From a virus, in IMG/VR virus record IMGVR_UViG_3300035664_000005, positions 36,946 through 100,945 of that record: DNA of 64,000 nt; one strand, written 5' to 3'. Of the stretch, positions 23,982 to 44,604 are shown piece after piece (position 1 is the first letter of the stretch; each line of letters opens with the position of its first letter). The notes under the pieces were generated by a model. That model was not told where the DNA came from. It saw only the letters and a list, made by a program, of their open reading frames with translations, and made no database searches. A program made the translations under genes and the position numbers.

Positions 23982-24235
23982 TTCTTCTTCTTCTTTTTCT
24001 TCTTTTCGCTCTCGGAAATGTATGGTGTAATCATCCCATAAGTTTTATGCATTTCATCAATCTTGTCTTGATTTCTCATAAGATAACTGACCATTGACTC
24101 AAGGTCACCGTCTTCACCATTGTCTTCGGCGAAACCGAACGCTGTAGCAATAATTTTTGAACGCGTATTAGCGTTTTTTACTTTTTTGTATAGTTCAACT
24201 TTTATCGCAGTTTTTTGTTTTTCTGTGAGTTTCAT
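23978..24235 (-). CDS. Small helical protein with C-terminal poly-lysine tail
   Basis: An 85-residue helical protein (MKLTEKQKTAIKVELYKKVK, then acidic AEDNGEDGDLESM) that ends in eight consecutive lysines. The tail-encoding AAGAAGAAAAAG stretch runs into an ATGA overlap with the next gene, so the same purines probably act as its ribosome binding site. Also overlaps the upstream 1443-residue gene by 4 bases. The Lys tail could bind DNA or capsid interior. Unknown family. Confidence 0.6.
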   Translation of the reverse strand: MKLTEKQKTAIKVELYKKVKNANTRSKIIATAFGFAEDNGEDGDLESMVSYLMRNQDKIDEMHKTYGMITPYISESEKKKKKKKK

Positions 24236-27200
24236 GTCAGCCTCTTGTACCTTATCGCTCTATCTCTAAGCAAATTTTTTCTTCTTATATTTCGGTAAGC
24301 AGATTTCTCCCCAATTTTGTTGTCAGCGAAATTCAGGGCGGCACCCGAATATAGGGGCATGTGTTCTATGAACCAATGTTTTATGTAATCTCTACGGGCT
24401 TGTTCTTGGATACCACCAGAATCCATCATAAAGATTGCATCTTGGAGGGAAAGAGGTACACCAGATTTTTGTAGATCAACGAACGCTTTGACTCGTTGGT
24501 ACTCTTCATCCGTTGTAATTAAACCACTGCCACCCAAAACTTCATAAGTCCGCATTGCTGCTTTGAAGTGGCTCATCCTGTAACTATCTAGAGGTTCCTC
24601 GTTCTTAAACCCGACACGAGCCCAAATGTATTGTCCATCTTCCGCTGGACTTACTTGTGCTTCTTTAACCCCTATTTTTTCTAAATACCTGAAAGCAACA
24701 CCGTTATAAACTGTTGCCAATCCTGCTCCTTTGTCGCTATTTTTTGAAATGAAAAAACTTTGTTGATAGACGCTTGGTGGGTTTCCATTCATTTGTAATC
24801 TGCGTGTAGATGCCGCGATTCGCTCTCTCACTACCCTGCCGTCTTCATCTACTTCGTCAAACTCAACGTCAATAATTGTTTCATCAGGATTGTAGCGAAA
24901 ACGCTGCACTCGTGTCCTATAAAACTTCCCGTTTGCACCTACGATCTGGTCAAAGGTGTAAGCCTCTCGCAAATATCCCTCTTTTTGTTCGTTAGAAAGA
25001 GTCCCCCATTTTTCTGGTGTCATACGAACAAAATCAGGAAGCATATTGTTTGAATCTTCAGGATCGCCACCGTAATCAGGGAACTGAGATTCCAAATAGG
25101 TTTCAACCTCTGATGCACGTTTAGCAACTGCTTTTTCTATACTTGTGTCAATATCTGATTTAAGTTTTTCCGATGTTAGTTCTGGCGCTTCAAGTTCTTT
25201 AGGATCAACAAAGTATCCTTCCTGAAGTCTCAGAAGAGCCTTGTCAAAATCTTCTCTCAGTGAATTTCTTTGACGCATCCCGTGTTGTGCTTCGGCAATG
25301 CTAATTCTCGCCCTACCTATTTCACTGACAGCGCGGTTTATCGCTGAGGGTGACGGATTGTCCTCGTTTGATAATTTTTCAAGTTTTTCAACAGCATCTA
25401 AAATTCTTGCTCGCGCTTCTTCAATTCTAGCCAAATCGTCCGAGTCATTCCCATATCTGTAGTCGGCACGAATTTGTTCAACAGCGGCAGTGACATCTCT
25501 GCCGTCAGCAACTTGGGCTACACGTTGACTCAAATTATCAACATACGCCATTTCAAGTCGTTGTTGGGTTTCAGCAACATCATATTTGTTTTCATCAATT
25601 ACTGCAAGGACACCCGAAAGGTCTTTCACATCACTAATTTTTAGTACTGCTTGTTCCAAAAGTTTTTCTTCAATTGGATCCAACATTTTCTCAACTGGTG
25701 TGGGTCTATAGCGAAGTTGTTCAGGTGTACCTACGATTCCTTTTGGTTCCCCAACTTTGAATGCTTCCAATGGCGCCAATTTTCCTTCTTGGAACTCTTT
25801 TAAAAGTCTTTCTTCTAGTTTTACTCTCACAAGTTTTGCTTTTGCATCAGCAATATTTTCCAACTGTGCGCTTATCGGACTTTGAGTGCCGATATTTTGT
25901 TTCATGATTTCAAGTTGTTCTTTGATGGTGTTTTGATATGTGTCACGAAGAGATTCCGCTTGTTCAATCCTCGTAGCGATTTGGGCAGCGCCACCAAAAT
26001 CCCCATTAAACAGACCTGCGGTATAAGATCTTTCCCAGTTTACGAATTCATCAAGCCGTGTTTGCAGTTTTGTTTTATAAAGTTCTTTCGCTTGCAAATA
26101 CAAAATCCCGTTAGAGGAATCTAAGAGTTCATTAACATCATTATTTAATTCAGGATCATCAATATCGGCAATGGGCTGATCTGCACCAATTACTGCACGC
26201 ACAGGGACATCGGGTCTTGCTCCTTCAATACCGAAAGGGTTTTGTTGTATGACCGCGTTGATGACACGGTTTTCTTCATACATTCTTTCTCTGCCCTGTA
26301 TCGCTAACACCAGTTTTTGAATTGCTCGTTGACGTTCTTCACCTTCTAACGCGTTGAGCAATTCTCGTTTCGCGTCGCGTATTTGATTATTGAAATCGGA
26401 TGCTTTTTCCGAATTAGATGCAATGATTTGATTGAGTGCTTCAATATCCCCGTATATGCCGTCCTGCAATTGGGCTGAATTGTATATTACAGGGTTTTGA
26501 TTTTTTGCAATTTGATATTGCGAATTGATGGTATTAACTTCGGAATAATTTAGATCTTCAATGATTTTAAATTCTTCAGCAAGTTTTGGATCATTAAAAC
26601 GGCGCGGTCCTGCTGGTTGTGGTTGTGGTTGTGGTTGCTTATCTAGGGGATCGTTAACCAAGTTGCGTTGAGGTACGGGTCTGCGGCGCCATTCAATATT
26701 TGCTTCAATTTCTAATTGACGCATTTCCATCTGTTTTATTTTTTCATCAGACCCTTGTTGTGCCGCCCACGCGATCAGATACCTGTCACGCACCATGTCT
26801 CGTGCGCGTCCTCCGTTTTCTGTTCCCAAGTCTCGTTGAAGATTTAACCACGAGTCTCCTGCGTCCCTCAACCTTTTTTCAAGGGTCACCTGTAATCTTT
26901 TTTCTCTTGCCAATAGATCTTTAAGTTCGTCTAAGTTCGCGGAATTAAAATTCTGCATATTGTCGTAATTGTTGATTATGTCAAAATTGACGTTATTGAG
27001 CGCATCATTAATTTTTGCTTGATCTCGGTCTTCTTTGAAAGTTGCCTCAGGAACAAGGTACCCTCTTCTCATTGCGGGTGGTAAAAGGTTCGGTCTTGGC
27101 GGTGGAGGCTGAGGTACATCTCGTCCTTGTTCCACAATGGAAAGCGGTGTCAATTCTTCGGGGTTCGGTTTTCTTCTCTTCGGTTTATTTTCTTCTGCAT

Positions 27201-28563
27201 CAAGTCTGCGAAGTTCCTGAAGATCTGGTTCTAGTAAATCAACTTCTGGTTTTGGGCGGCGAGGTTTTACTATTTTTGGTTTGTCTTTTGCGGGTTTATC
27301 CTTACCTTCTGCCCTCAATTTTCTAGCGGCTTGCTCTCTTAATAGGAATTGGGTTCTTTCCCTGCTGACTCCGCCCTTTTTTCTTAATTCAGTTTCTATT
27401 TCTTGATCAGTCATATTCCGAATTCCCTCAGGGATCGGTTGTAGATCAACTTCATTCATCCCTTCAAAATTCACGGGCGTTATTTCTCGTTGCTCTTCCC
27501 GACGCGTTGGTGCTTTTGGTTTCTGAGTCGCTTCAACGACAGCACGACGACGACGGCGAGCAGGGGCTTCACCAGTTCTTGGCGCGCCGGGTTGAACGAG
27601 TTCTCGTTCCATTCTTCGCGCTTCTGAATCGCGAAGGTTTCCTCGTCGGCGTTGGGGTGGTTTTTTACCCCTACGGTTCAATTCTGCGTTAACTTTATCT
27701 AGCCGTTGCTTTGCGGTTAACCTTTGCGCGCTTACGGGGAGCATGCCAATCATGCCATCATCGCGAGGTTTATCTACTGCGTCTCGCAGTCTTTCAACCG
27801 ATTCCTGTGCATCTTGGTACTGTTTCTCTAAATCCTCGTCACTCATGGTGCGAAGGTTCTCTACATATGGGTCTTTGTCATCTCGTCTTGGAAGTGCAGG
27901 GGTATCACGATTTGGAATCGGACGAGTAGGACGAACAGGTGTTTCGCCAGTACGCGGTGCACCCGGCTGTTCAATTTCGCGATCAATTCTTCGTTGCTCG
28001 GATTCCCGTAGGTTCGGTGCACGCCTTCTGCGTGGAGCACGAGGAGCAGGAGTTAATTCGTTTGGTGCTTCGGGTGTGTCAACCGATGGTGGTCGTGCGA
28101 CAACAGTTCTGCGACGTTGCCCAACGAGACCTCGCGCAACGTTTCGCAGACCCCCTGTTTCTCCTCCTTCTAATCTTTCTGCAATACCTCGCAATCCCTG
28201 TTCAAGACGACCAGAACCTCTGTCTTGTGGGTTTAAGCGATTGAGAATTCTGCGTTCACGACGAGCAATACGCTCTCCTCTACGGACATCATCAACATTT
28301 TCTAACCGCTGACCGATGTCCGAAATTTGGTTGGCAATTCTTCTTGCAACACCCCAACCGCAAGACCTACCGAAACGGTCTGTGATTTGTCCGCCATATC
28401 GTGTCCCAACAGGGCAACGCCATCCGCCCCTTCGGTTAGTTCCGGGGATAGACAAACTCGGATCCCACAAAGCGCGGACTGACTTAACTTCGTAAGCCAT
28501 TGTTGACGTGTTTCTTTCACTAAGAAACGACTTGGCTTTAAAATCAACAATGTTTTGGAGCAT
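24232..28563 (-). CDS. Giant head-region protein: shared CPVGT module, Arg/Pro linkers, coiled coils, GNAT-like C-terminal domain
   Basis: A 1443-residue protein. Residues 1-90 hold the module shared with 28851 and 32533 (FKAKSFLSERNTST, then WDPSLSIPGTNRRGG, then CPVGTRYGGQ...C at 50-68, then ARRIANQI). A repeat-rich basic region follows (~90-480: GLRGIAERLEGG, NVARGLVGQRR, NLRESEQRR / NLRDSEARR with PGAPRTGE, Pro/Arg stretches), then ~600 residues of helical coiled coil. The C-terminal ~250 residues look like a GNAT acyltransferase: GAGLATVYNGVAFRYLEKIG as acetyl-CoA pyrophosphate loop and helix, and DGQYIWARVGF as the last strand. Probably packaged in the head; the acyl acceptor is unknown. 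Confidence 0.65.
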   Translation of the reverse strand: MLQNIVDFKAKSFLSERNTSTMAYEVKSVRALWDPSLSIPGTNRRGGWRCPVGTRYGGQITDRFGRSCGWGVARRIANQISDIGQRLENVDDVRRGERIARRERRILNRLNPQDRGSGRLEQGLRGIAERLEGGETGGLRNVARGLVGQRRRTVVARPPSVDTPEAPNELTPAPRAPRRRRAPNLRESEQRRIDREIEQPGAPRTGETPVRPTRPIPNRDTPALPRRDDKDPYVENLRTMSDEDLEKQYQDAQESVERLRDAVDKPRDDGMIGMLPVSAQRLTAKQRLDKVNAELNRRGKKPPQRRRGNLRDSEARRMERELVQPGAPRTGEAPARRRRRAVVEATQKPKAPTRREEQREITPVNFEGMNEVDLQPIPEGIRNMTDQEIETELRKKGGVSRERTQFLLREQAARKLRAEGKDKPAKDKPKIVKPRRPKPEVDLLEPDLQELRRLDAEENKPKRRKPNPEELTPLSIVEQGRDVPQPPPPRPNLLPPAMRRGYLVPEATFKEDRDQAKINDALNNVNFDIINNYDNMQNFNSANLDELKDLLAREKRLQVTLEKRLRDAGDSWLNLQRDLGTENGGRARDMVRDRYLIAWAAQQGSDEKIKQMEMRQLEIEANIEWRRRPVPQRNLVNDPLDKQPQPQPQPAGPRRFNDPKLAEEFKIIEDLNYSEVNTINSQYQIAKNQNPVIYNSAQLQDGIYGDIEALNQIIASNSEKASDFNNQIRDAKRELLNALEGEERQRAIQKLVLAIQGRERMYEENRVINAVIQQNPFGIEGARPDVPVRAVIGADQPIADIDDPELNNDVNELLDSSNGILYLQAKELYKTKLQTRLDEFVNWERSYTAGLFNGDFGGAAQIATRIEQAESLRDTYQNTIKEQLEIMKQNIGTQSPISAQLENIADAKAKLVRVKLEERLLKEFQEGKLAPLEAFKVGEPKGIVGTPEQLRYRPTPVEKMLDPIEEKLLEQAVLKISDVKDLSGVLAVIDENKYDVAETQQRLEMAYVDNLSQRVAQVADGRDVTAAVEQIRADYRYGNDSDDLARIEEARARILDAVEKLEKLSNEDNPSPSAINRAVSEIGRARISIAEAQHGMRQRNSLREDFDKALLRLQEGYFVDPKELEAPELTSEKLKSDIDTSIEKAVAKRASEVETYLESQFPDYGGDPEDSNNMLPDFVRMTPEKWGTLSNEQKEGYLREAYTFDQIVGANGKFYRTRVQRFRYNPDETIIDVEFDEVDEDGRVVRERIAASTRRLQMNGNPPSVYQQSFFISKNSDKGAGLATVYNGVAFRYLEKIGVKEAQVSPAEDGQYIWARVGFKNEEPLDSYRMSHFKAAMRTYEVLGGSGLITTDEEYQRVKAFVDLQKSGVPLSLQDAIFMMDSGGIQEQARRDYIKHWFIEHMPLYSGAALNFADNKIGEKSAYRNIRRKNLLRDRAIRYKRLT
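28300..28467 (-). repeat. Copy 1 of shared WDPSLSIPGT-CPVGT-ARRIA module
   Basis: Codes for residues ~33-88 of the 1443-residue protein; nearly identical in protein and visibly similar in DNA to copies at 31518-31685 and 34783-34950. Two Cys 18 residues apart flank a Gly-rich turn, and a helix with paired Arg follows. Confidence 0.85.
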
Positions 28564-28832
28564 TACTCCCCGATTTTTGCTTTGGCGATCGCTAAATTGT
28601 CCTCAGAGTATGACATCACTTGATACTCAAAACGAGAAGCAGACTTAATCCACCAACTAACAGGGTCAGTTATTTTACCTCTTTTTAATGCGTCGCCGTA
28701 ATCGCTTTTAGGGTCATCAATGTATTTTTGGATTTGTTTACCAGTTTCACCAGCACCAAAAATCTCTACATCTTTTCCATCGCACGAAATACCAAAATCG
28801 TGATTTGTTACTATCGCTATTGATGCTTTCAT
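28563..28832 (-). CDS. Hypothetical 89-residue protein
   Basis: A small soluble protein between two giant head-operon genes; its TAA stop overlaps the ATG of the 1443-residue gene (TAATG). It contains VTNHDFGISCDGKDVEIFGAGETG and DPVSWWIKSASRFEYQV, suggesting a small alpha/beta fold. No family recognised. Similar small genes (32184, 36758) alternate with the giant genes and may be their chaperones or antidotes; this is only a positional idea. Confidence 0.55.
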   Translation of the reverse strand: MKASIAIVTNHDFGISCDGKDVEIFGAGETGKQIQKYIDDPKSDYGDALKRGKITDPVSWWIKSASRFEYQVMSYSEDNLAIAKAKIGE

Positions 28833-28850
28833 AAAGTTTTTTCCATTTCT

Positions 28851-31800
28851 TTAACGAAGAATTTCATTCATCAGACCGTCAACGAATCTTGTGTCACCCA
28901 ATTGAGCCAAGTTATACTCTAAATTCTCGCGTCTTTCAGTTTTCATCGTGTCTTCCACCGCATCATAAACAGCGTCAACTTGATCCAATTGATCAAAAGA
29001 ATCTGCTATTGCTTTTCTTGCTGTGGCTATAGTTTCTTGAAGTTCTTTCTTAATCGCTTGCGTTTCTCGTATCTTGTCTTGACCTTGTAAGCCACTCAAA
29101 CGCTTCTTATACCCCTGCCAAGGTCTTGGATCCATACCGTGAACAAATCCAAAATAATTTACCAATTCCGCTGCTGTTTTTCTTTCAAATCTTGCCCGAC
29201 CGAAATCTAAAGGAACCGCACCGTTGCCCGCAAATAAATCTCCATTGCCAGCGTGCCTATCTCTCACATCCATTATCGCATTAAGTATCCCATTGAATAA
29301 TCGCGACTGAGGGTCGGTTATTTTGCTCGGATCATAACCTCCTGCGAGTTTACCGTCGGAGTTATTTAAAAAAATGTCCATCAAAAGGAAAGGACCTGTA
29401 TCATCTCCGCCTGCGATTCTTGGTGATCCGTTTGCAAACCCAAGATTTTTGGCAAGGATGTTCCCAATGACTTCTGCGTGCTGAGATCCAGAATTGCCGT
29501 CGTTGTAGGCGTCGTCATAGTCTTCGTCGCCAAATTTTAGAAAGTATCCTCTGCCCCATTTTTGTGGGTTTTCATCAAGCAACAAAAAGTATTGCGGACT
29601 TGTAATTCCAGAACCAACAGGCATTTTGACAAAGTCAATCCCATTTTCTTTCAGTGCCTTAACTAGGGCAATGTTTTCTTGAATTCGCTGTGGGGGCAGT
29701 GCACCTAAACCTGCTTGAACATCTGTGCCTATTCCTCTTCGGACATCAATGGTTAATTTTTCTAGTTTTGCACCAATTTGAGCGTCGTCAAGATTTGGGA
29801 AAACTTTCAGTACAGCATCTCGTATTTCTGGAGTGAGCCCTCGGCGATCAGCGAAGTTTGCTGTACGGGCTTCCAGTGCATCTAAGATAAAGTCGTCTGG
29901 AATATCTGCCAACGAACCTTTATACGCTTTTGCTTCATCTACAGTGTTGATTCCTTTGTTGCCTACTGGCACTGAAACAAATTTTCCGTCTTTGGGTTGA
30001 AGTTTTGGCATGGCGGTCTCGTGGTTGTCCGCAAGGTTGTTCATTTTTAATGCTGGTGTGTTTCCACTTTTTGGGTTTGACGGTGTTGGCGTCGGCGCTT
30101 TAGATGTGGTTGATTTCGCATTTACCGCTTGTCGGAGTTTTCTGTGTTGTTCGCTAACTTTTCGTAAATCATCCATCACACCGACATCAGGACGCTGCCC
30201 CATTTGTCGTATTAATTTTATCTGTCCTCTTTTGTCATCTTCAATGCCTTCTACAAGACTAATCAGGTCGCTCAATTCGGTTTTTGAAACTGCTTTTGGT
30301 TGAAGCAAAATTGCTTTAACCTGTTTGTCAAATTCTTCACCCCACACATAGTTTGGGTCGCTCTTTATTTGTTTGATTGCTTCAGTGACAGCATCGCGAG
30401 CGGCTTTTTCTTCTGTGACTTTGTTTCGTTTATTCCGTTTAACTGGTTTTGCTGGCGCTGGTTCGGGAACGTCGTCAGGTGTTGGTTTGCGTGTTGCGCT
30501 ACGACCTGCACCTTGTGCCGTTGCTTGTCTGCGACGACCACGATTGTTTCGCGGACGACGAGGTTTTGGTGTTGGTGGTTCAAAATCTTGTGGTGCGTTA
30601 CGTCCGTGAGCATTTTTCCAAGCGTCACGAAGATTAGATTTATTGATTGCGTACCATTCACGGCGTGTCAGCATTCCAGCGTTTCCGCCACCTTCACGAA
30701 TTTCACGAACGCGTTTTGCGTACTCGTCATATTTTCGTAATACGTAAGGTTTGAAGTCTTCTGATGCTAAGGCGTCTGATGCGTCTCGTGCTGTGAGTAC
30801 ATCAACATTTTCTGCTTGTGGTGCAACGCGTGGGCGTGCCTGTGGGCGTTTTCCTGCTGGTGCTGGTCGTTTCGTAGGGCGTGGTTTCGGTGCAGGATTG
30901 TTTCTACCGTTCAAAAATGCTTTACCCGCCGTCGTTACCTCTAGGGTGTATTTTGCTCTGTCGGGATCAAAAACCCCACCTGCTGGAGTGTCGTTCTTTT
31001 TTTTACGAAGGAAACCTTTTTTGACTAATCGTTTAATGATTGGTTCATCTTCCGTAGTGACGCCTACCCAATCGTCCCAAACAGCACCAGTCCCCCCGTC
31101 GGGATGTGCTTCAAGAACGCGTTGTAGAAAATCTCGGTCTTCCTTTTCTTCGCGCAGATTTTTTTTCGGTGCCTTTGGCGTGGGCGCTGTTTCAGGGATT
31201 ACATCACGACGCCTATTACGAGGAACTCGTGCTGGAGATTCTGCTTCAGGCATAGTCTCTGTGACTCGCCTTTTTGGAACCCGTCGTTGCCCAACAAGAC
31301 CGCGTGCGACATTTCGCCAACCGCCGTCAATGTCATTTGCTTCTGCAACTCCGCCACGACCTACTTGTGGTTTTGGTGCATCCCCGCCTTCAAGACGCTC
31401 AGCGATACCGCGTAAGCCTCCTTCAACACGACCAGTCTCAGGAACTCCGCCAAGCCTTCTCATCATTCGTGCATTACGACGATCAAGACGACGCTTCCGT
31501 TTGTCATCATCTCGTTGTTCTAGTCGTTCACCGATATCTGCAATTTGGTTTGCAATACGGCGTGCTATACCCCATCCACATGAGCGTCCGAACCTGTCGG
31601 TGATTTGTCCGCCGTATCTTGTTCCTACAGGGCAACGAAAGCCCCCACGACGATTAGTTCCGGGTATAGAAAGACTTGGATCCCAAATAGCGCGAACACC
31701 TTTGATTTCAAAATGTGCTGATGAACGAGTTTGATCCGATATGAAAGAAGACGCTTTGAAAGTAAGAACATTTTTGAACTCCTCATTAGAAAACTCAGAC

Positions 31801-32105
31801 AGTAAAACTTCAGAGATTGACAGAACAGGGAGTGTTTCTAATTCTTTTTTTACGAGAGAAATATTTGCAACTTTTTTCTGTGATGCCATCCCTGAAGGGC
31901 TTGGTCCTTCAATGATTTTTGATGCGTCCATTGTTTGAACTAGTTCAGGTTTAGTGATTGGTGTTTTGCCATATTCTTCGCGCAACATTTTGGCGAGGTC
32001 TTTTGCAGGCTCAGACATAGGTTCAAAAGTGGAACCCTGAGGTGTTGATGTGACAACCATGAAAGGGGTCTCGTCGCGATTTTTGATAACAAAAACTAAC
32101 TTCAT
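28851..32105 (-). CDS. Giant head-region protein with shared CPVGT module and C-terminal kinase domain
   Basis: A 1084-residue protein. An extra ~110-residue N-terminal domain precedes the module (FKASSFISDQT, WDPSLSIPGTNRRGG, CPVGTRYGG at ~158-166, ARRIANQI). Basic linkers follow, with GLRGIAERLEGG and NVARGLVGQRR as in the 1443-residue protein, a winged-helix-like stretch (~345-420) and long Arg/Pro-rich regions. The C-terminal ~350 residues form a HipA/PI3-4K-like kinase: YFLKFG (ATP-binding Lys), HAEVIGNILAKNLGF (Glu helix), DVRDRHAGN (catalytic loop near 945) and LDFGRARF (metal-binding DFG). All key residues are present, so activity is likely. Substrate unknown; possibly injected with DNA to phosphorylate host proteins. 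Confidence 0.7.
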   Translation of the reverse strand: MKLVFVIKNRDETPFMVVTSTPQGSTFEPMSEPAKDLAKMLREEYGKTPITKPELVQTMDASKIIEGPSPSGMASQKKVANISLVKKELETLPVLSISEVLLSEFSNEEFKNVLTFKASSFISDQTRSSAHFEIKGVRAIWDPSLSIPGTNRRGGFRCPVGTRYGGQITDRFGRSCGWGIARRIANQIADIGERLEQRDDDKRKRRLDRRNARMMRRLGGVPETGRVEGGLRGIAERLEGGDAPKPQVGRGGVAEANDIDGGWRNVARGLVGQRRVPKRRVTETMPEAESPARVPRNRRRDVIPETAPTPKAPKKNLREEKEDRDFLQRVLEAHPDGGTGAVWDDWVGVTTEDEPIIKRLVKKGFLRKKKNDTPAGGVFDPDRAKYTLEVTTAGKAFLNGRNNPAPKPRPTKRPAPAGKRPQARPRVAPQAENVDVLTARDASDALASEDFKPYVLRKYDEYAKRVREIREGGGNAGMLTRREWYAINKSNLRDAWKNAHGRNAPQDFEPPTPKPRRPRNNRGRRRQATAQGAGRSATRKPTPDDVPEPAPAKPVKRNKRNKVTEEKAARDAVTEAIKQIKSDPNYVWGEEFDKQVKAILLQPKAVSKTELSDLISLVEGIEDDKRGQIKLIRQMGQRPDVGVMDDLRKVSEQHRKLRQAVNAKSTTSKAPTPTPSNPKSGNTPALKMNNLADNHETAMPKLQPKDGKFVSVPVGNKGINTVDEAKAYKGSLADIPDDFILDALEARTANFADRRGLTPEIRDAVLKVFPNLDDAQIGAKLEKLTIDVRRGIGTDVQAGLGALPPQRIQENIALVKALKENGIDFVKMPVGSGITSPQYFLLLDENPQKWGRGYFLKFGDEDYDDAYNDGNSGSQHAEVIGNILAKNLGFANGSPRIAGGDDTGPFLLMDIFLNNSDGKLAGGYDPSKITDPQSRLFNGILNAIMDVRDRHAGNGDLFAGNGAVPLDFGRARFERKTAAELVNYFGFVHGMDPRPWQGYKKRLSGLQGQDKIRETQAIKKELQETIATARKAIADSFDQLDQVDAVYDAVEDTMKTERRENLEYNLAQLGDTRFVDGLMNEILR
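31518..31685 (-). repeat. Copy 2 of shared WDPSLSIPGT-CPVGT-ARRIA module
   Basis: Codes for residues ~141-196 of the 1084-residue protein. Differs from copy 1 mainly at Ile for Leu before WDPSL, Phe for Trp before the first Cys, and Ile for Val before ARRIA. Confidence 0.85.
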
Positions 32106-32183
32106 TGGGTGCTTTCCATGATCGGGAAGGGTTTAACAGACCTTCTATACCGTGTAGTGGTATCGCCTATCAAATATTAGCAC

Positions 32184-32510
32184 TTATTTTGCTGAGTATT
32201 TTTTGCTGTATTCATCTATTTCTGCCACTAATTCGTTGACGCGATTTTTAGGCACATCCTCATTGGTGACAAATTTATAATCCTTTGGATCGCTTTGTGA
32301 ACCTCTATGGTCTAAAAGGCTGACGACCATGCCCTTATCCTCAAACATTCCCGCATTATTAGGGTTGTCTGAGTGTGTTCGGATGCGGAGACCGTTGTGT
32401 TTGGATGCCCTAGAGACTTTGTACCAAATCCATTTATTTTCATCATAATGGACGACAAGTTGGTGCAACTCTGTCTGAATCCGTGACTCGTAAGTTATTG
32501 GAAAACCCAT
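32184..32510 (-). CDS. Hypothetical 108-residue protein
   Basis: Small acidic/basic mixed protein (HQLVVHYDENKWIWYKVSRA, then a C-terminal helix VNELVAEIDEYSKKYSAK) between two kinase-bearing giant genes. No recognised family. The ATG follows TAGAAT plus six bases, the leaderless spacing seen elsewhere, although a weak GAAGG also lies 12 bases upstream. Confidence 0.55.
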   Translation of the reverse strand: MGFPITYESRIQTELHQLVVHYDENKWIWYKVSRASKHNGLRIRTHSDNPNNAGMFEDKGMVVSLLDHRGSQSDPKDYKFVTNEDVPKNRVNELVAEIDEYSKKYSAK

Positions 32511-32516
32511 AGTTAT

Positions 32517-32522
32517 ATTCTA
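32517..32522 (-). promoter_or_regulatory. Possible internal promoter -10 box before 32184-32510
   Basis: Minus-strand TAGAAT, six bases, ATG. It lies in the 22-base gap after the 837-residue gene; being in AT-rich sequence it may be chance. Confidence 0.25.
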
Positions 32523-32532
32523 CCTTCAGACA

Positions 32533-35046
32533 TTAAAAGTTCCCCGTCATTTGATCTAGATTGGCTAAACCCCAAGCAATTCGTGCTTCAGCCACCCTTC
32601 TAAGTTGAACCAAATGATTTTTTTCCGAATCCGACAACTTAATACCGTTAGCCTCAATTCGTTCAACGCTCAACTGTTCGTCCAATCTTTCTCTAATTCT
32701 CTCAAAAGACCTACGCATTGTCTTTTTATAAATATTCCGATCACGATCATTCTGAAATTCGTAGCCCAAACTTTCTAATTCGTCAAACGGATTATTGGCA
32801 GGCTCGTCCATATAAGCCCTCAAACTTGGATCAGCAACAACGAGGTCTGCGGAGTCTCTCACCCACTCATCAAATTCTTGTTCGTCATAGTTGGGGTTTG
32901 GAACTCTCCCACCGAACAACATGCCATTGTCAATAATTGCCAAACGGACACGTCCGCCTTGTTCTGTCATCAAGAAATTACCACCGTGTCTATCTGTGTT
33001 GCCAAACACAAAGTCCATCGCCAATATTCTTGCCGAGTCGCGCGGGTTGATTTTTTTGGCTTGGGCTTCAGTCATCATGCCTGCATCACGCCATTGACCC
33101 TGAACACCATTTTCCCATTGTGCAACATCCCGCATCATCATCCATCGTTTTGGTGGTTGACCAGAAACAGAACCTACCCTTAAATGGTTTTCATTATTAC
33201 CGAACTCTAAATCTTGAGCGACTCGCATTCCAACGTTTTCTAGTAAAGCGTCGTTCCTTCCGTATGTTGAAGTTTTCAAATACCAAACTTCTCCATTAAT
33301 TTTGTCCGTAACTCTAAACACTTGCCACGGACCTGGAGCAGCCCAATTTTTGTCTGCTATTAGTTTAAATTTGTACCTTCTATTTTCAAACTGAGATCCC
33401 TCACCTTCATCAAAACCTTGATCTAGTTTTTCGGCAATTTTTGCATCGGTGAACAGCAATGGACGACCATTCGCATTTAACTGCTTGAACTGACCATCAA
33501 AAACCGCTTCAATAACTACGCCATCTGGAACATCTGCAAGATTTCCGTTATCTTCGTGAAGAAGTTTTACGGCTCTTTGTAGGTCAGCCTCTTTCCCGTA
33601 TCGGCGAGGTGTTCTGCCACCTTTACCAGCGTCAGCATCAGGGACAACCCTTGAAGCGGGCAAGGAGTCTAAGGGTTCAGGAGTTGGAGGTGTTGGTGGT
33701 GTCTGAGGTGTCGGAGGTGTCGGTGAACTTGTGTTTTCGTTATTTCCGTCGCTTAGATCCAAAAACTGTTGACTAAAATCGCGTAAGTAACGATTCAGTG
33801 ACGCTTGACCCTGTGGACCTCGGTACTCTTGTTCTAGCGCGTCACCATCAACGATATTTCTGGCTAGGAAACCACGAAATTTTCCGCTTTCTTGTGGGAG
33901 TAGTTCAATTTCCCAGTTTCCCTTTTTCCATTTCGTTGAACCATCAGGTTGGTTAATAGCATCCCAACCTTCTCCACCGAAATCTGGCATTTTCATATTT
34001 GCCTGTGCTGTTGGTGCTTTAGGTGGTTGACCGGGTTTGTTGTCTGGGTTTTTTATTTTTCTGTTGACATAATCTCCTCTGTTATTGAGGTATCCGTCAT
34101 TGTCGTAATAGCGTCCAAATCTTCTTTCAAGTTCTGCTTTTTCTTCACCTTCAGGGAAATCTGCTTCTCGCCAATAAGCGTTATCGGGAAGACCTCGTTC
34201 ACGGAAACGATTACGCACATTTCTGATAGAACGCTCATCGGGAAGACTGCTACCGATGTCCACAGCAGATGATGGGTCGGCAACAAAATCTGGGTCTGCT
34301 TCAACAACCGTTGGGCGAGGCGCAGATGGTAATTTTCTTGTTGGCACTTTTGTGGGTTTTGGTTTATCGCCGTCTACAAAATCTGCTTCTGGTTTTCTGC
34401 GTGCAGTTCGTTTTGCCCCTTGTTGGGCAGCCGTTCGCCGACGTCGTCTTTGCTTGTTCGGTTTTGGTGGTTCTCCCGTGCGTGGGGCACCCGGTTCTAC
34501 AAGTTCTCTTTCCATCCTGCGTGCTTCTGAGTCACGAAGGTTTCCTCTCCTACGAGGCGTTTTCTTTCTCTTGGGTGCGTTTGGTTTTGGTGGAATTGTT
34601 GTAGGAGATTTTGGACGAGCCGATGGTTTTATTTGTCGTGGCTTCTGTTCGCCGTCAAGTGCTTCAGCGATGTTTCTCGCTCCACGTTCAAGTAAGCCGG
34701 GTTTTTGTTGTCTTGCCAAGAAGCGTTGCATGCGAGCATTTCGTTTAGCAAGACGATTATTGCGTTTGCGATCGTCAATGTTTTCTAACCGTTCGCCAAT
34801 GTCTGCGATTTCGTTGGCGATTCGTCGCGCTACTCCCCAACCGCAAGAACGACCGAACCTGTCAGTTATCTGACCTCCGTAACGAGTCCCCACAGGACAA
34901 CGCCAACCGCCACGCCGATTAGTTCCCGGTATAGACAAACTTGGATCCCACAAAGCACGAACACCTTTTACTTCGTAATTAAAAGTGCTTGCTGTTTGTT
35001 CTGAGATGAAAGTCAAAGCCTTGAAGTTGACTTCGTTTTTTTGCAT
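32533..35046 (-). CDS. Large head-region protein with shared CPVGT module and C-terminal PI3/4K-like kinase domain
   Basis: An 837-residue protein. N-terminal module at 1-90 (FKALTFISEQT, WDPSLSIPGTNRRGG, Cys50/Cys68, ARRIANEI), then basic linkers including NLRDSEARRMERELV and PGAPRTGE, a middle domain around residue 360 (MPDFGGEGWDAINQ ... YLRDFSQQFLDL), a Pro/Thr hinge, then NLADVPDGVVIEAVF and the kinase. Kinase landmarks: VWYLKTS (Lys), LLENVGMRVAQDL (Glu/Asn helix), WMMMRDV (hinge), FGNTDRHGGN at 681-690 and IIDNGMLF (DNG near 706-708). Complete enough to be active. The start is separated by only a stop codon from 35047-36765. Confidence 0.72.
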   Translation of the reverse strand: MQKNEVNFKALTFISEQTASTFNYEVKGVRALWDPSLSIPGTNRRGGWRCPVGTRYGGQITDRFGRSCGWGVARRIANEIADIGERLENIDDRKRNNRLAKRNARMQRFLARQQKPGLLERGARNIAEALDGEQKPRQIKPSARPKSPTTIPPKPNAPKRKKTPRRRGNLRDSEARRMERELVEPGAPRTGEPPKPNKQRRRRRTAAQQGAKRTARRKPEADFVDGDKPKPTKVPTRKLPSAPRPTVVEADPDFVADPSSAVDIGSSLPDERSIRNVRNRFRERGLPDNAYWREADFPEGEEKAELERRFGRYYDNDGYLNNRGDYVNRKIKNPDNKPGQPPKAPTAQANMKMPDFGGEGWDAINQPDGSTKWKKGNWEIELLPQESGKFRGFLARNIVDGDALEQEYRGPQGQASLNRYLRDFSQQFLDLSDGNNENTSSPTPPTPQTPPTPPTPEPLDSLPASRVVPDADAGKGGRTPRRYGKEADLQRAVKLLHEDNGNLADVPDGVVIEAVFDGQFKQLNANGRPLLFTDAKIAEKLDQGFDEGEGSQFENRRYKFKLIADKNWAAPGPWQVFRVTDKINGEVWYLKTSTYGRNDALLENVGMRVAQDLEFGNNENHLRVGSVSGQPPKRWMMMRDVAQWENGVQGQWRDAGMMTEAQAKKINPRDSARILAMDFVFGNTDRHGGNFLMTEQGGRVRLAIIDNGMLFGGRVPNPNYDEQEFDEWVRDSADLVVADPSLRAYMDEPANNPFDELESLGYEFQNDRDRNIYKKTMRRSFERIRERLDEQLSVERIEANGIKLSDSEKNHLVQLRRVAEARIAWGLANLDQMTGNF
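34783..34950 (-). repeat. Copy 3 of shared WDPSLSIPGT-CPVGT-ARRIA module
   Basis: Codes for residues ~33-88 of the 837-residue protein, nearly identical to copy 1. Confidence 0.85.
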
Positions 35047-36765
35047 CTACTTTTTCTTTCGTTGCTTTGCCAGATCGGGCTTGATGAATGTCTCATATAG
35101 CCATCGTGGAGCGGTTCGTTTTACACCGTCGGCGCCTGTGTATTCCACGAGTGCCAATGCATCAGGAATGTTTCCCGTATCAGCAATAAATTTGAATGCA
35201 CCTTCAGAATTTTTTGCGAAGTCTTCAATATTTTTGATGATGTTGTCTTTGGTGCTTGATTCTGCAAGCGAGTTAATCATCCGTGGGAATTTGCGTTTTT
35301 CACCAATTGTGAAGGGTCGCGAGCGTTCAATGCTGACCGTTACACCGTTTGGAGCGACGAAAGCGATCTTGCTCATTGACGGACCACCAAGAAGCGCTAA
35401 ATCGTCTGCGCCTATGTCGGCAGGTAATTGAATGGCGCGAACCATCGCACCGTCAACCATGTCAGGGTTTTCACTGAATGAACGAAGAACAGATGAAGGA
35501 ACAACTGGTCGTAGAATTACGCCGTCTCGTCGGATCATTCGTCCTTCGCCTGCTGGCGCACCTTTAAGCGTTGATATTGACTGCCGAACCGAAGCGTTGA
35601 ACTTATCTTTTTGGAAAGCGCCAGTTCGTGGGATTTGTGCCATGCGACTGATTTGAATTGTTCGCGCATTACTTGGGTTTCCCTCTAATACTTCTGAAAG
35701 ATTTTCGGCTCTTGCTTGCGGAAGTTTCGGTGCCGCTGTCGGGCGCATTGCTCGTCTGATTAGTTCTAACGGACCTGGTATTTCAAATAGTTGTGCACCG
35801 CAAGTAGAGAAACGGTTGTCTGTGAATCGTCCACCAAATTCAAAACCAGCAGGGCATCGTGCTTGACGCTTACGATTTGGCTTCAACCGACTGAGAGCAC
35901 CTTGTCCCCCGCCCGGTATTAGCGCACCGTAAACGCGTGAACGAATCGGAGAAGTCAGAGGGGAGATGTTTCCGGGTGTTAACGCTGAACCAATGCCTTG
36001 CAATGCTCTTCCTGCACCTGAACTAGAACCAACCAATCCTGCTTTTTCTTCTAAACCTTCTGAGTCATCTTTACCTACTCGGTATCCACCGCCACGCTTT
36101 TTGTATTCACGAACAAGCCAAGCATTCGCATATGCAGATGGATAAACATTAAATTTCTTTTTGGCTTCCGCTTTAACTCGTGCATAAAGTTCGGGGTCTG
36201 TAGGGATATTTTCACTTTTTACTGTGAATTCATCAGACTTAATTGTGGACACATTGATTGGTTTCTTGTCTTCACGGGTTTGAGAGTTTTCGGCTCGTCG
36301 TTTCCTGTTTACGGCGGAAGCAATTTGCTCGGGGGTCATACTCATCGCTCTAGACTTTTTCACACATTTTGGATACTTACCTGAATTTGCGTCCTCACGA
36401 CCGCAAGACTCAAAGCCTCCACCCTTTTTAGGGCGAGAGATGTCAACCCATTCTTCTTCAAACCATTTTCCTAAGCCACCGCGTTTTGTTTCATCGCCGA
36501 TAAAAGTCTCCGAACCCAACCGTGATGTCCGTGATTTTACATAAAGAGTTGCTTTAAAGTTGAGCAAAGACCTGTCACCGTTTAACGGTGTTTTTCTAAG
36601 CGCTGAACCTTTGGTGAAAATAGTTTTTCTTTTTGAATTTGATGGGTCAAAATAGGTTTCGTTGCCTAAGACAATGTTGGTTCGTTTTAGTAAGGTTTTT
36701 TCGCGAACAGATATACGAAGTTTCCGAGCAAAGTATTCAAAGTTTTGGTTGAGATAGTTACTCAT
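35047..36765 (-). CDS. DUF5872-like head-region protein with divergent CPAG module
   Basis: A 572-residue protein. Residues ~96-160 have GLGKWFEEEWVDISRPKKGG ... CGR ... YPKC, and ~190-230 have PELYARVKAEAKKKF then YPSAYANAWLVREYKKRGGG; both are typical of the viral/bacterial segments I remember as DUF5872 and its N-terminal partner. A divergent form of the shared module is internal here: CPAGFEFGGRFTDNRFSTCG at 304-323. The opening NFKATLYVKSRTS also resembles the pre-module stretch of the giant proteins. The C-terminal ~200 residues (RMIRRDGVILRPVVPSSVLRS, IAFVAPNGVTVSIERSRPFTIG) look like a beta-rich structural domain. Probably a virion protein; function unknown. Confidence 0.65.
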   Translation of the reverse strand: MSNYLNQNFEYFARKLRISVREKTLLKRTNIVLGNETYFDPSNSKRKTIFTKGSALRKTPLNGDRSLLNFKATLYVKSRTSRLGSETFIGDETKRGGLGKWFEEEWVDISRPKKGGGFESCGREDANSGKYPKCVKKSRAMSMTPEQIASAVNRKRRAENSQTREDKKPINVSTIKSDEFTVKSENIPTDPELYARVKAEAKKKFNVYPSAYANAWLVREYKKRGGGYRVGKDDSEGLEEKAGLVGSSSGAGRALQGIGSALTPGNISPLTSPIRSRVYGALIPGGGQGALSRLKPNRKRQARCPAGFEFGGRFTDNRFSTCGAQLFEIPGPLELIRRAMRPTAAPKLPQARAENLSEVLEGNPSNARTIQISRMAQIPRTGAFQKDKFNASVRQSISTLKGAPAGEGRMIRRDGVILRPVVPSSVLRSFSENPDMVDGAMVRAIQLPADIGADDLALLGGPSMSKIAFVAPNGVTVSIERSRPFTIGEKRKFPRMINSLAESSTKDNIIKNIEDFAKNSEGAFKFIADTGNIPDALALVEYTGADGVKRTAPRWLYETFIKPDLAKQRKKK

Positions 36766-37075
36766 TTTGTGAAGATTCTTTCGGATTTACGATTTCTGCT
36801 ATTTCTGACGGCAGTTGAGTTTTCCATTTTTTAGCCAGCAAATCTAAAAGGTACTTATTTTCATCATTTAAAAGATTCGTGCTTATATCATAATACGACA
36901 TTTTTGAGGTGGCTTTTTCAATAGTCATTTTTCCTGTTGAAACAAGCCCTACATATATGGTTTCGGCAAGTTTCTTGTCAGGGCACATCACCGCAAAGAT
37001 TTTGGAGTCCTTTTCAAAAAGAACATACGGGGAGCCACTAATACCCACGCTTGGGGCGATTACCGCATATCTCAT
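36758..37075 (-). CDS. Hypothetical 105-residue protein
   Basis: ATG 37075 sits behind GAGGGGGAATAGT just after the stop of 37077-37838, so the longer frame from 37132 is rejected. The product starts MRYAVIAPSVGISGSPYVLF, an alternating hydrophobic beta pattern, then a helical C-terminus. Its end overlaps the DUF5872-like gene by 8 bases. One of several small genes interleaved with large ones in the head operon. No family. Confidence 0.55.
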   Translation of the reverse strand: MRYAVIAPSVGISGSPYVLFEKDSKIFAVMCPDKKLAETIYVGLVSTGKMTIEKATSKMSYYDISTNLLNDENKYLLDLLAKKWKTQLPSEIAEIVNPKESSQNE

Positions 37076-37076
37076 A

Positions 37077-37838
37077 CTATTCCCCCTCCAAAAGCCTGTG
37101 GAGAACAGTGTCATTGGGGGGCGCAGACTCAATCATCATGTCAACCAATTTTTTAACTTCAATTCTTTGAATTTCCATCAGCCTTTTGGTGGCGTTGCTT
37201 ACTTCTTTCTTGATTGCATACAGTTCTTTTACTTGTTTATTGGAAATTGATTTCATGTCAAAAAGTTTTGGGTCATCCACAATGCCGTCTAGTTCTTTGA
37301 TTAAGTTGGCTCCCAAAGAACTAGGGTCAATTTTTTTTAACTCTTTAAGGGTTTCTTCCGCGATCTCTATGAGTTTGGTGAAATTACTTTGACTACGACC
37401 ATGTCTTTTTTGTAGTTCCGTGTTGACAAAAGAATTGCGGTACGCCTTGACGACCTGTTCTAACGAAGTGTCTTCCATGTTGAAAGGCTGAAGAATTGAG
37501 TCGTGATCAACAGGGATGACATCAACACCTTCAGCGTTTTCGCTTAACAAAAAATTGCTTACATCCCTTTCCCCGTTCAACATCACCACATCCATTAAAT
37601 GCATGTAAAGCAATTTGTCGCTTTGCACGGCTTCCAAGTTGTCTGGCGTTGTCTGTTTTATTTTGCCATCATAAGAATCAATTGATGAATCAGCCATAAT
37701 TGAGATTAGACCTTTTTGAGGGTCAAGTTTCATAACTCGCAAAGCAGACGACGGGTATCCAAACTCTTCCAAAATTACATGACCTAAAACTTCAGATAAA
37801 GGTTCATACCATTTTGATTTAATTACTTTGTCGTTCAT
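37077..37838 (-). CDS. Short kinase-like protein (C-lobe of HipA/PI4K-type fold)
   Basis: A 253-residue protein aligning by eye with the kinase domains of the 1084- and 837-residue proteins: LSEVLGHVILEEFGY matches the helix after the ATP-binding Lys, LISIMADSSID the hinge, LMDVVMLNGERDVSNFLL (88-97) the catalytic loop and VIPVDHDSIL (D111-D113) the metal loop. The catalytic loop reads E-R-D-V-S-N rather than D-R-H-x-G-N, and the N-terminal strands are nearly absent (only VIKSKW). It may be an inactive pseudokinase, or complete itself with the N-lobe-like stretch in the upstream 775-residue protein, to which it is coupled by a 4-base ATGA overlap. Confidence 0.5.
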   Translation of the reverse strand: MNDKVIKSKWYEPLSEVLGHVILEEFGYPSSALRVMKLDPQKGLISIMADSSIDSYDGKIKQTTPDNLEAVQSDKLLYMHLMDVVMLNGERDVSNFLLSENAEGVDVIPVDHDSILQPFNMEDTSLEQVVKAYRNSFVNTELQKRHGRSQSNFTKLIEIAEETLKELKKIDPSSLGANLIKELDGIVDDPKLFDMKSISNKQVKELYAIKKEVSNATKRLMEIQRIEVKKLVDMMIESAPPNDTVLHRLLEGE

Positions 37839-40162
37839 GGCTTCAACTTTACTTCTATTGGATAGATACCTTGCTCTTTGATGTCATCCAACTTGGTTTG
37901 GATGTTTTTGACAAGATCTTTCATATGATCAGAAAACTCTTCGCGCGACATAGGCGATGCATCTCCCGGTTTATATGGGAATGGGTCTACGCCAACTGTT
38001 TTACCTTTAATACCCAAACTTTCTTGAAACACTTTCGCCATAGCGAGAGCCTCGGTGATCGTTCCTTGATACTCCACGACATTTAGCGTTAGTTGCTCGT
38101 CCGCTGGTAAATGGTCATTCGCTAATTGAATAGCAGCCCATCTGTGGTGACCATCAACTACATATCCATCACTTGAAGTCAAAATCGGGCTCTTCCACCA
38201 TGCGGCTTTGGATTCCTTCAACCATTTTTCCCGCGCGGCAGTCCACTCGGGTGTTCCCTTCTCTCCCCACTCTTTTCTGGCAGTCTCGTAAGCCGAAAGT
38301 ATTCCTTCTGACTGCCCATCAATTTGCGCGTTCTTCAATTGATTTTGCGATGCGAACAGAGTTTTTGGATCCTTTGCTTTGGTCTGTAAAGCATTCTCTG
38401 GATCGGGATGTGTATCTTCCAAGAATTGAAATAATTCTGGTTCTGTTTTAACTTCCGTGGAACTCCAATTAGTTCTTTCAAAAACCCATTGTTTATCTTC
38501 TTCGGAGACATCTCCAAATGTTTTAGGTTTGTTCAACTTGTTTGAAAGATCTTTATATTTGTCTATATCTTCTTGACTAGTGAGTTTCTTTGGTTTAAGT
38601 TCCCCTTCAATAAGACCCGACTGAAACGCACGCATAGCGGGAGTGTCCGCCCCTTTTGTCGCCCCACCGCTTTGAGGCATGTTTTGACGCTGAACACCAA
38701 TGTTTTCGTTGCAAAACAAATTCTTTGCAGAGTAAAGACGGCATAGGTCAATATCGTGTGTTTCTTCAAAGTTTTTGAGCCAAGCCGCTTTTTCTTCTGG
38801 TGTGATGCTTCCAAGTTTTTCCAACTCTTCGGCTCGTTGCGCTCCTATATCTTTTATTTCTTTTTCCATTTGCTTGGCACTGTTTTGCACCAATTTTTGT
38901 TGACCGTCATCAGGGATTTCAACTTCGTAACCTAAAGCCAACAAAGCAACAGCCTCTTCAACATCGTCTGTTTGATAGATCGGATTGTCGGAAAGTACAC
39001 TCTTTTTGCCTGACCGCGTAACTCCGTATTTATCCAACAATTCCGCATCGCTCAAATCGTGAAGTTTGCCAGAACCCATCCCGTCATCAAGCAAAGTTCG
39101 CAACTTTGATGCCGCCCCCTGAGCAACTAATTTTTGGGTATCTTCTCTGCCGAAACTTTCATTTGAATATTTAATAGTAAAAAGTTTGCCATTTTCCCTA
39201 TCCCTGAGACGACTTGTTCTTCCCTCATGAACAACTTCAAACCGACCAGTCTCAAGAACATTTCCGTCTTTATCTTTTTTGTCCATGTTGTCAAGAACTG
39301 CGTTCAAAATTAATTCGTCGGATATCTCGTTTAAAGGTTTACCGTTTTTAAGATGATCTGCCGCTTTTTCTGCGGTATCTATATCTTTGTTTACGGTTGG
39401 GAGATCGTGTGAAACATTTTTCCCATTTATATCCGCAGCGCCAACTGAAAATTCGTTGTCTTTTGATTTAGCGACTTTGCTTCTACCAAGATTGAACCCA
39501 CTCCTTGACTTGCGCTTGCCCATATTTTTTTCTTTATTCTTATTCATGGACGCAATAAAGGCTCTAGCGTCAACGGACGAGTTTGATTTAATTCTTTCCG
39601 CTATTGCTTCTAATTGTTCTTTTCTTTTATCCGAAATTTTTCCTCGCTTATGAAGCGAATCAACCGTAAAATCAAGCACATCAGCGCCACCAGAGTTAAA
39701 CAAAGAAACTGCCAACAAAACGCTATCTGTAATAGACCCCTGTCCGTCACCATACGAATAGTCAAACGCCTGCAAAGCAATTAATGATGCTGTTTTTGCG
39801 GATCCTTTAACATTTTTATCCGCCAAAATCCCTCTAGCACCATCCACTAATTTGTCCATCATTTTCGCTGCACCCCTAGCGACCTGAGATGCGTCAGGGA
39901 CAAGACAGTTAGACATTTGCATGTCGGTAAATTGGTTTGCGTTTGGAGTACCGGGTGGACACCTTAATTTTCCTGCTGCGTCAACAATGACACCAGCGGC
40001 ACGAGCGGCACGTGTACCAACAGAATTCAAAGAAGGATTATCTTTTATGGTCGGTCCGAGATAACCCTTAAATAGAAGAAGGTTGTCCTGAACGACGGAA
40101 ACAGATTTTCGGTATTCTGCGACTCTTTCGTTTGCGTCAAAAGCGCGAGACGATTTAATCAT
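37835..40162 (-). CDS. Large head-region protein with CPPGT module, kinase N-lobe-like stretch and C-terminal ParB-like domain
   Basis: A 775-residue protein. The shared module appears in divergent form (RCPPGTPNANQFTDMQMSNC, Cys68-Cys86). Residues ~265-345 resemble the region before and including the kinase N-lobe of its neighbours: AADHLKNGKPLNEISDELIL, then GKLFTIKYSNESFGRED and QKLVAQGAASKL; the rest of a kinase domain is missing. The C-terminal ~110 residues are ParB/sulfiredoxin-like with GYVVDGHHRWAAIQLAN (DGHHR 670-674), like the 838-residue protein. Many such domains are nucleases or nucleotide-dependent enzymes in phage and toxin contexts. Couples to 37077-37838. Confidence 0.6.
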   Translation of the reverse strand: MIKSSRAFDANERVAEYRKSVSVVQDNLLLFKGYLGPTIKDNPSLNSVGTRAARAAGVIVDAAGKLRCPPGTPNANQFTDMQMSNCLVPDASQVARGAAKMMDKLVDGARGILADKNVKGSAKTASLIALQAFDYSYGDGQGSITDSVLLAVSLFNSGGADVLDFTVDSLHKRGKISDKRKEQLEAIAERIKSNSSVDARAFIASMNKNKEKNMGKRKSRSGFNLGRSKVAKSKDNEFSVGAADINGKNVSHDLPTVNKDIDTAEKAADHLKNGKPLNEISDELILNAVLDNMDKKDKDGNVLETGRFEVVHEGRTSRLRDRENGKLFTIKYSNESFGREDTQKLVAQGAASKLRTLLDDGMGSGKLHDLSDAELLDKYGVTRSGKKSVLSDNPIYQTDDVEEAVALLALGYEVEIPDDGQQKLVQNSAKQMEKEIKDIGAQRAEELEKLGSITPEEKAAWLKNFEETHDIDLCRLYSAKNLFCNENIGVQRQNMPQSGGATKGADTPAMRAFQSGLIEGELKPKKLTSQEDIDKYKDLSNKLNKPKTFGDVSEEDKQWVFERTNWSSTEVKTEPELFQFLEDTHPDPENALQTKAKDPKTLFASQNQLKNAQIDGQSEGILSAYETARKEWGEKGTPEWTAAREKWLKESKAAWWKSPILTSSDGYVVDGHHRWAAIQLANDHLPADEQLTLNVVEYQGTITEALAMAKVFQESLGIKGKTVGVDPFPYKPGDASPMSREEFSDHMKDLVKNIQTKLDDIKEQGIYPIEVKLKP

Positions 40163-40171: not shown

Positions 40172-40594
40172 TTACTCGTCAATATCCCAAAATACGCCAC
40201 ATGCCGAACGATTCCCTGACCGTATTTCTTTGACTTCATGTCTGATGTTGGAATCATAAAACAATAATGCGCCTTTTGATGGTTTAATTGCTAAATCTTG
40301 GTCTGGAAAATATATTTCTCCGCCTTCAAACTCACTACTCAAATATACAACAACCGAAATGTGTGGTGGTGTGGTGTAACTAAAGTCGTAGTGAACACCC
40401 ATGGATTCGGTGGGTTTCATGTCGTAAACAACAAACTCCATTTGAAATGGATATTTTTTTAACTGTTTGTTGACTGTTGAGGAAATTTCGTGGCTTATCT
40501 TCTCCTCTAAATGTTTTGCGTTAGGTAAAACCTGTAGAGCGACTACATCAAAAATTTCTTCTTCGGTGAAAAAGTTTGAATAATATTTAATCAA
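40172..40594 (-). CDS. Small 2OG-Fe(II) oxygenase inside the head operon
   Basis: A 140-residue minimal prolyl-4-hydroxylase-like dioxygenase. MGVHYDF gives His68/Asp70, VVYLSSEFEGGEIYF the core strand, IRHEV the distal His119 and GNRSACGVFW the 2OG-binding Arg129. It is encoded among head genes, 9 bases upstream of the 775-residue protein gene, which makes hydroxylation of a capsid or head protein an attractive but untested idea. Confidence 0.82.
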   Translation of the reverse strand: MIKYYSNFFTEEEIFDVVALQVLPNAKHLEEKISHEISSTVNKQLKKYPFQMEFVVYDMKPTESMGVHYDFSYTTPPHISVVVYLSSEFEGGEIYFPDQDLAIKPSKGALLFYDSNIRHEVKEIRSGNRSACGVFWDIDE

Positions 40595-40617: not shown

Positions 40618-40884
40618 TTAACTTTCGCTTGAGTCAGATTCCTTATTGATCGTTGACATTGGAACCACATCATCGTCCTCTACTTCTTTTTTCTTAGAAG
40701 CCTTTTTAGGTTCCACTTTTTCTTCTACTACTTGTTCAACGACTATTGGTTCTTCCTTAACTTCAACCTCAACAACAGCAACCTCTACTTCAGGCGTCAC
40801 TACCGCAGGGACTTGTTCTTGTTTTGTTTCAAAAAGAAGACCTGAAGTGTTGACCGAGTCATTCAGTTGGTTTTTCTTCTTCAC
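40618..40884 (-). CDS. Acidic disordered protein
   Basis: An 88-residue protein rich in Glu, Val, Lys and Pro (VEVAVVEVEVKEEPIVVEQV) with an acidic Ser-rich end, surely disordered. Overlaps the preceding scaffold-like gene by 4 bases. Small acidic proteins in this position can be scaffold or decoration accessories; no direct evidence. Confidence 0.5.
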   Translation of the reverse strand: MKKKNQLNDSVNTSGLLFETKQEQVPAVVTPEVEVAVVEVEVKEEPIVVEQVVEEKVEPKKASKKKEVEDDDVVPMSTINKESDSSES

Positions 40885-44552: not shown

Positions 44553-44604
44553 GATGCTCCAAAAATGTTTGTTTATTAACAATAAACTATTTAGGGCACC
44601 AAAA

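Follow-up and report, generated by a model that had tools for sequence, protein, structure and literature searches.

A two-cysteine module shared by a multi-gene array of phage head-operon proteins with apparently exchangeable tails

The window analysed here, meaning the whole stretch of 64,000 nucleotides that forms bases 36,946-100,945 of a virus record of 100,945 bases (IMG/VR record IMGVR_UViG_3300035664_000005), has a G+C content of 43.7%. It carries a head operon on the minus strand, comprising a portal-MuF fusion, an S78 protease, a Cys-rich protein (X), a 2OG-oxygenase-like ORF, five array proteins, a DUF3721 protein and an HK97-type capsid protein. A preliminary description had placed five large proteins between the portal/protease genes and the capsid gene. 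All five ORFs hold at the start codons proposed there, all on the minus strand, with the portal-MuF (44644-46854) and S78 (42414-44582) genes on one side and the capsid gene (20006-21325) on the other. The ORF at 37077-37838, which that description did not list, is added here. The features, in the order of transcription, are as follows.

44644-46854, minus strand: portal protein fused to MuF, opening the head operon (Pfam Phage_portal 3.2e-48, Phage_Mu_F 9.8e-7; phrog_2662 portal)
42414-44582, minus strand: S78 prohead protease with a C-terminal Cys-rich domain (Peptidase_S78 7.2e-11; proheadase_HK97; phrog_6439)
40881-42359, minus strand: X, a Cys-rich acidic protein with a PepSY domain (2.9e-5), between protease and array; position kept in relatives
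40172-40594, minus strand: 2OG-oxygenase-like ORF within the head operon, between X and the array
37835-40162, minus strand: slot a, with type a module, putative kinase N-lobe to about residue 334 and a ParB-like cassette after it (PHROG, module pattern, comparison with relatives)
39905-39961, minus strand: module type a, CPPGTPNANQFTDMQMSNC, residues 68-86 of slot a
37077-37838, minus strand: putative detached kinase C-lobe, out of slot a via the ParB cassette, DRH changed to ERD (comparison with relatives; weak PI3_PI4_kinase match)
35047-36765, minus strand: slot b, with a DUF5872/KWFxExW segment, then type b module; C-terminal 250 aa kept in near relatives (DUF5872 3.7e-15; phrog_23735 1e-16)
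35800-35856, minus strand: module type b, CPAGFEFGGRFTDNRFSTC, then GAQLF, residues 304-322 of slot b
32533-35046, minus strand: slot c1, with FKA lead-in, type c module, basic Pro-rich linker and predicted PI3/4K-HipA-like kinase (Pfam PI3/PI4 kinase 2.9e-8; catalytic residues; fold)
34843-34899, minus strand: module type c, CPVGTRYGGQITDRFGRSC, then GWG, residues 50-68 of c1
28851-32105, minus strand: slot c2, with a 110-aa extension, FKA lead-in, type c module and divergent predicted kinase (DRHxGN...DFG)
31578-31634, minus strand: module type c, CPVGTRYGGQITDRFGRSC, residues 158-176 of c2
24232-28563, minus strand: slot c3, with FKA lead-in, type c module, long linker and C-terminal domain of predicted GNAT fold (model pLDDT 87.7; Foldseek)
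28360-28416, minus strand: module type c, CPVGTRYGGQITDRFGRSC, residues 50-68 of c3
21465-23981, minus strand: two-Cys DUF3721 protein with phrog_3170 and ParB-like parts, the final gene before the capsid gene (DUF3721 3.2e-14; phrog_3170 2.1e-41)
20006-21325, minus strand: major capsid protein (MCP), HK97 fold, 0 Cys, candidate delta-domain cut K140|D141 (Phage_capsid 2.3e-44; PDB HK97 alignment)

The gene order portal-S78-X-a-b-c(1-3)-DUF3721-MCP recurs across relatives. In this phage the Cys-rich phrog_6439 domain (43203-43430) is fused to the protease; relatives encode it on its own, between slots a and b, and capsid proteases of Microbacterium and Arthrobacter phages contain it too. Two 2OG-Fe(II) oxygenase-like ORFs are present (40172-40594 and 148-732), the former directly upstream of the Pro-rich array, whose proteins could be its hydroxylation substrates. 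A second common motif, LGTxxG...DGDGDG(F/M), is present in two copies in the DUF3721 protein and in one copy in a post-capsid gene (17579-18400); relatives have it too (e.g. L036:15351-16904).

The array proteins are linked by a two-Cys module of the form C-P-x-G-x7-T-D-x5-C, which falls into three subtypes ordered along the array, type a in the first protein, type b in the second and type c in the last three. The shared module claimed for all five proteins is borne out, since the pattern CP.G.{7}TD.{5}C has exactly one match in each, giving 5 matches in the window ORFs vs 0 in 300 shuffles. The three type c copies are near-identical, as had been noticed, and share the FKA...WDPSLSIPGTNRRGG lead-in, and in each of them FKA precedes the first Cys by about 41 residues. 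Across 40 diverse copies of the module, R-C-P and the second C are invariant and the Gly and Thr nearly so. The possibility that the module is a known Pfam, PHROG or NCBIfam domain was rejected, as no match from these collections overlaps it, and the CPxG module is absent from the DUF3721 protein. The predicted structure of the module region is of low confidence (pLDDT about 36-56 over residues 21-90).

Beyond the module, the proteins carry different domains, as the preliminary description had proposed. This applies to the predicted kinases of c1 and c2, the GNAT domain of c3 and the ParB-like part of slot a; the DUF5872 segment of slot b, which had been counted among the distal domains, instead precedes the module. 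By fold and by its catalytic Lys, Glu, DRHxxN and Asp, the c1 tail is a predicted PI3/4K-HipA-type kinase; its Foldseek matches are PI4K, Vps34 and HipA, and these catalytic residues are invariant in 30 proteins, the relatives of c1 including c2. The c3 tail is a GNAT fold in the structural model, with top Foldseek matches that are mostly GNATs (best E 6.7e-4, low TM-scores). In slot a, residues 1-334 match the slot-a proteins of relatives through the putative kinase N-lobe, while the ORF at 37077-37838 aligns with residues 367-613 of the relatives' slot-a kinase (36-38% identity, E about 1e-49 to 1e-55). Between the two lie a ParB-like segment of about 440 residues and its stop codon, and a ParB-like cassette thus appears to have split the kinase into N-lobe and C-lobe ORFs (37077-40162). 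The DRH motif of the C-lobe is gone (ERDVSN), so the split kinase of this phage is probably inactive. A close relative, L029, has the same split arrangement.

The module is common in aquatic virus contigs. A protein search of IMG/VR yielded 49 related loci, most with several module proteins, and a degenerate DNA pattern applied to virus contigs marked at least 119 stretches; an HMM confirmed a module protein, of up to 3,254 aa, at each locus that was checked. By tblastn, no module copy was found in 50,697 isolate phages; relatives of the type b and c proteins were likewise absent from isolate phages, and the type a protein was matched in its ParB region only. When 257 Gb of genome contigs from bacteria and archaea were scanned, the same degenerate pattern gave 15 matches, 6 of them genuine, in three MAGs, and 9 due to chance. 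Bacterial chromosomes were dismissed as the home of the module, as the 6 genuine matches sit on what look like phage contigs. Three contigs with genuine modules (L178, L184, L185) belong to one Phycisphaerae MAG (ETNP2_MAG_79) and are probably phage contigs binned into it.

Fifteen contigs of 100-160 kb, with 2-5 modules each, reveal the genomic setting. Here 49 of 50 module matches lie upstream of the single capsid gene on the same strand, all 49 clustered and with E <= 1e-15; the lone outlier is weak (E 1.3e-5). The preliminary description had held that module matches mainly outside head operons would speak against its proposal; with 49 of 50 upstream of the capsid gene, this is not the distribution found. 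Because WhiB genes occur in 14 of the 15 contigs and whiB is described as restricted to Actinobacteria (PMC6802176), the hosts are probably Actinobacteria, presumably uncultured aquatic ones.

Module and tail differ strongly in how they evolve. Against relatives L006 and L024, the first 60 residues of c1 are 100% identical in amino acids with fourfold sites only 54-69% identical, whereas the last 240 residues share 17-42% identity. Near relatives in general have modules 90-99% identical and tails that are 20-40% identical or unrelated, and in slot a unrelated tails sit under modules 59-81% identical. The modules are evidently under strong constraint, and with near-complete conservation of the module beside divergent tails, the module behaves like a part of the head and the tails like effectors. 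By motif scan, slot a of relatives holds a kinase, an HExxH zincin, ParB + zincin (L041, L046, L051, L077) or kinase + zincin (L039). HExxH zincin motifs were found in 52 module proteins (not de-duplicated), mostly of type a. In giant relatives the list grows to include RNase T and NUDIX, along with a single protein that matches ADP-ribosyltransferase (ART); L111 combines NUDIX with a weak HipA-like kinase (Pfam). Judged by these comparisons, the attached domains are exchangeable under a conserved module.

We regard these genes as a multi-gene polyvalent effector array within the head operon, in which the shared module would anchor the proteins in the head for co-ejection with the DNA (probability about 0.6). 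An alternative, which we consider unlikely, is that the array proteins are virion components with mainly structural or assembly roles (scaffolding, capsid size, DNA condensing), their enzymes acting in head maturation with no effector delivery. Such roles would suit the module and lead-in, which evolve like core proteins of a capsid operon, the basic linkers, and the slot-b tail, which is 80-98% conserved in near relatives, i.e. not exchanged, so that b may be structural. They would also suit the two modules fused within one protein (1476-2434 aa) in L073, L115, L118, L124 and L162, an arrangement which suggests that slots b and c work together. However, the tails differ widely and replace one another within a slot, unlike assembly factors, and a repertoire of ART, NUDIX, RNase T, HipA-like kinase and zincin is typical of host-directed effectors.

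The distribution of cysteines also bears on where these proteins reside. In the type c proteins of this phage (1443, 1084 and 837 aa) the two Cys of the module are the sole cysteines, and across 99 type c proteins the Cys content outside the module is 0.07 per 1000 residues, 92 of them having none. The same phage has 0 Cys in its capsid and tape measure proteins but 15-31 per 1000 in its reductase, methylase and primase. In addition, the 200 residues downstream of the type c module are strongly basic; both traits, few Cys and basic flanks, are in keeping with a virion component. The proteins could instead be ordinary late proteins that stay unpackaged and act in the producing cell, in which case the module would be a mini-domain for regulation or metal binding that has nothing to do with the virion. 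The module by itself gives no sign of what it binds, which leaves some room for this very improbable reading, but Cys is excluded outside the module as in the capsid and tape measure proteins and unlike the replication enzymes, the linkage to head genes is strict in 15 of 15 contigs, and the domain repertoire is that of polyvalent proteins.

Exclusion of Cys would suit a protein that spends time outside the cell in the virion; if so, the pair that is kept must have a function, be it as a disulfide or as half of a metal site. One version, a refinement of the effector array and not exclusive of it, would make the module a redox switch, in which a disulfide formed in the virion locks the protein in the head and reduction on entry frees the effector. 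We hold this to be rather doubtful. The Cys-to-Cys span of 19 residues in all 274 module copies examined speaks for it, as do the 92 type c proteins in which the pair stands alone and the neighbouring DUF3721 and DUF5872 segments, whose cysteines likewise occur as isolated pairs; the pair could, however, be half of a zinc site whose other half lies in the Cys-rich X or S78 C-terminal domains. A related and equally doubtful extension is that the roughly 60-residue lead-in plus module is a portable, general packaging tag that loads unrelated enzymes, with an oxidised Cys lock opening in the reducing cytoplasm of the new host.

The preliminary description took the module for a common head-packaging or protease-processing tag. 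The first part agrees with its being a head-operon feature; processing fits better the hydrophobic-Lys-Ala sites upstream than the two-Cys module itself. Of 68 distinct type c N-termini, 61 have the motif [FY]K[AGS] where the conserved domain begins, and the motif is present in 55 of 73 type b N-termini. The broader [FYILV]K[AS] is enriched in several, though not all, head proteins, namely in the N-termini of b, c, S78 and DUF6321; it is marginal in type a (29 vs a shuffle maximum of 29), and no enrichment was found in X, DUF3721, portal or genes outside the head operon. These motifs near many N-termini suggest, though weakly, prohead-protease sites, although that of S78 itself may simply be the first strand of its fold. 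For the capsid protein, the predicted cut K140|D141 aligns within one residue of HK97 K103|S104, and the mature N-terminus of mycobacteriophage LittleE, DLDRNN, resembles the capsid sequence at this position (PMC3706429). Lys would be P1 both here and at the candidate [FY]K-A sites of the array, and from the HK97 alignment and the likeness to LittleE it is therefore a plausible P1 for capsid and array proteins alike. The conserved capsid motif EFK[SAT]L (residue 116) was dropped as a cut site, the HK97 alignment favouring K140|D141.

Module, operon position, conservation pattern, tail exchange, cysteine pattern and domain folds are all read from the sequence; packaging, cleavage, docking and injection are what we infer for the effector array. 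Each protein would begin with an N-terminal segment, differing in length between proteins and in many cases closed by an [FY]-K-A site that S78 may cut in the procapsid; next would come a very conserved short domain with the two-Cys module at its core. Module and lead-in would serve as a retention or docking handle that places the protein inside the procapsid, and the basic, Pro-rich linker of type c may associate with the DNA or lie along it. The exchangeable enzymatic tails (kinase, GNAT and ParB-like here; zincin, RNase T, NUDIX and ART in relatives) would accompany the genome into the actinobacterial cell, where host proteins or defences would be their targets; beneath the conserved module they are swapped in the fashion of polymorphic toxins.

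Among known systems, the nearest are the polyvalent proteins, large multidomain proteins encoded in a virion-gene context, with zincin, ParB, GNAT, kinase and ART domains, that are predicted to be injected with the DNA (Iyer et al. 2017, PMC5512222). The array resembles them in its exchangeable architecture, overlapping domain repertoire and adjoining genes for virion components, and this match of zincin, ParB, kinase, GNAT and ART favours the earlier proposal that the tails are injected effectors. The repertoire is found across the family, not all of it in one phage; a single polypeptide joins at least two unrelated effector or nucleic-acid domains in L041, L046, L051, L077, L039 and L111, and in the window only in slot a (kinase N-lobe + ParB). 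The array differs in that its domains are spread over 2-5 adjacent genes sharing one short two-Cys module, and in that its kinase is PI3/4K-HipA-like, whereas polyvalent proteins have a kinase group without C-lobe (PMC5512222). Neither "cysteine" nor "HipA" occurs in the text of PMC5512222.

Phage P1 offers a tested parallel for the proposed head processing and co-ejection. According to PMC12810830, several head-internal Dar proteins (DarA, DarB, DdrA, DdrB, Hdf, Ulx) are co-ejected with the DNA, the N-terminus of DarA is cut by the prohead protease near the site used in the capsid protein, and DarA-Hdf pairs are bound to the capsid wall. Compared by description, the systems differ in that no common sequence tag is described for the Dar proteins in the passages considered; none of the Pfam, PHROG and NCBIfam matches of the array is named Dar. 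The array is also like MuF-linked and polymorphic toxins, which, as cited in PMC5512222, have a conserved delivery part, variable C-terminal effectors and displaced cassettes beside the main gene. Its shared part is, however, a separate two-Cys module, with MuF fused to the portal instead and no MuF match on the array proteins.

To our knowledge, how phages select the proteins packaged in their heads is understood in a few systems only. If the effector array is real, a shared module on unrelated enzymes would make the choice of head loading directly testable; the module may serve as a search handle for unrecognised injected effectors and possibly as a loading tag. It would also broaden the concept of the polyvalent protein, a single giant polypeptide, to an array of several genes with interchangeable tails, in a large group of probable actinobacterial phages that is spread through aquatic samples and includes none of the isolates searched. 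A literature search gave nothing relevant on phage PI3/4-kinases, DUF3721 or DUF5872 in phage heads, or head operons of freshwater actinophages.

Giant proteins after the portal, at the same genome position as the array, are also encoded by Gordonia phage GMA6 (Orf13-14) and Streptomyces phage Gilgamesh (gp48), neither with a two-Cys module by HMM. At this position GMA6 carries a gene annotated as ART and a protein with the zincin motif, and the Gilgamesh protein, encoded right after the portal gene (L191:18697-32571), has 4626 aa and a single Cys.
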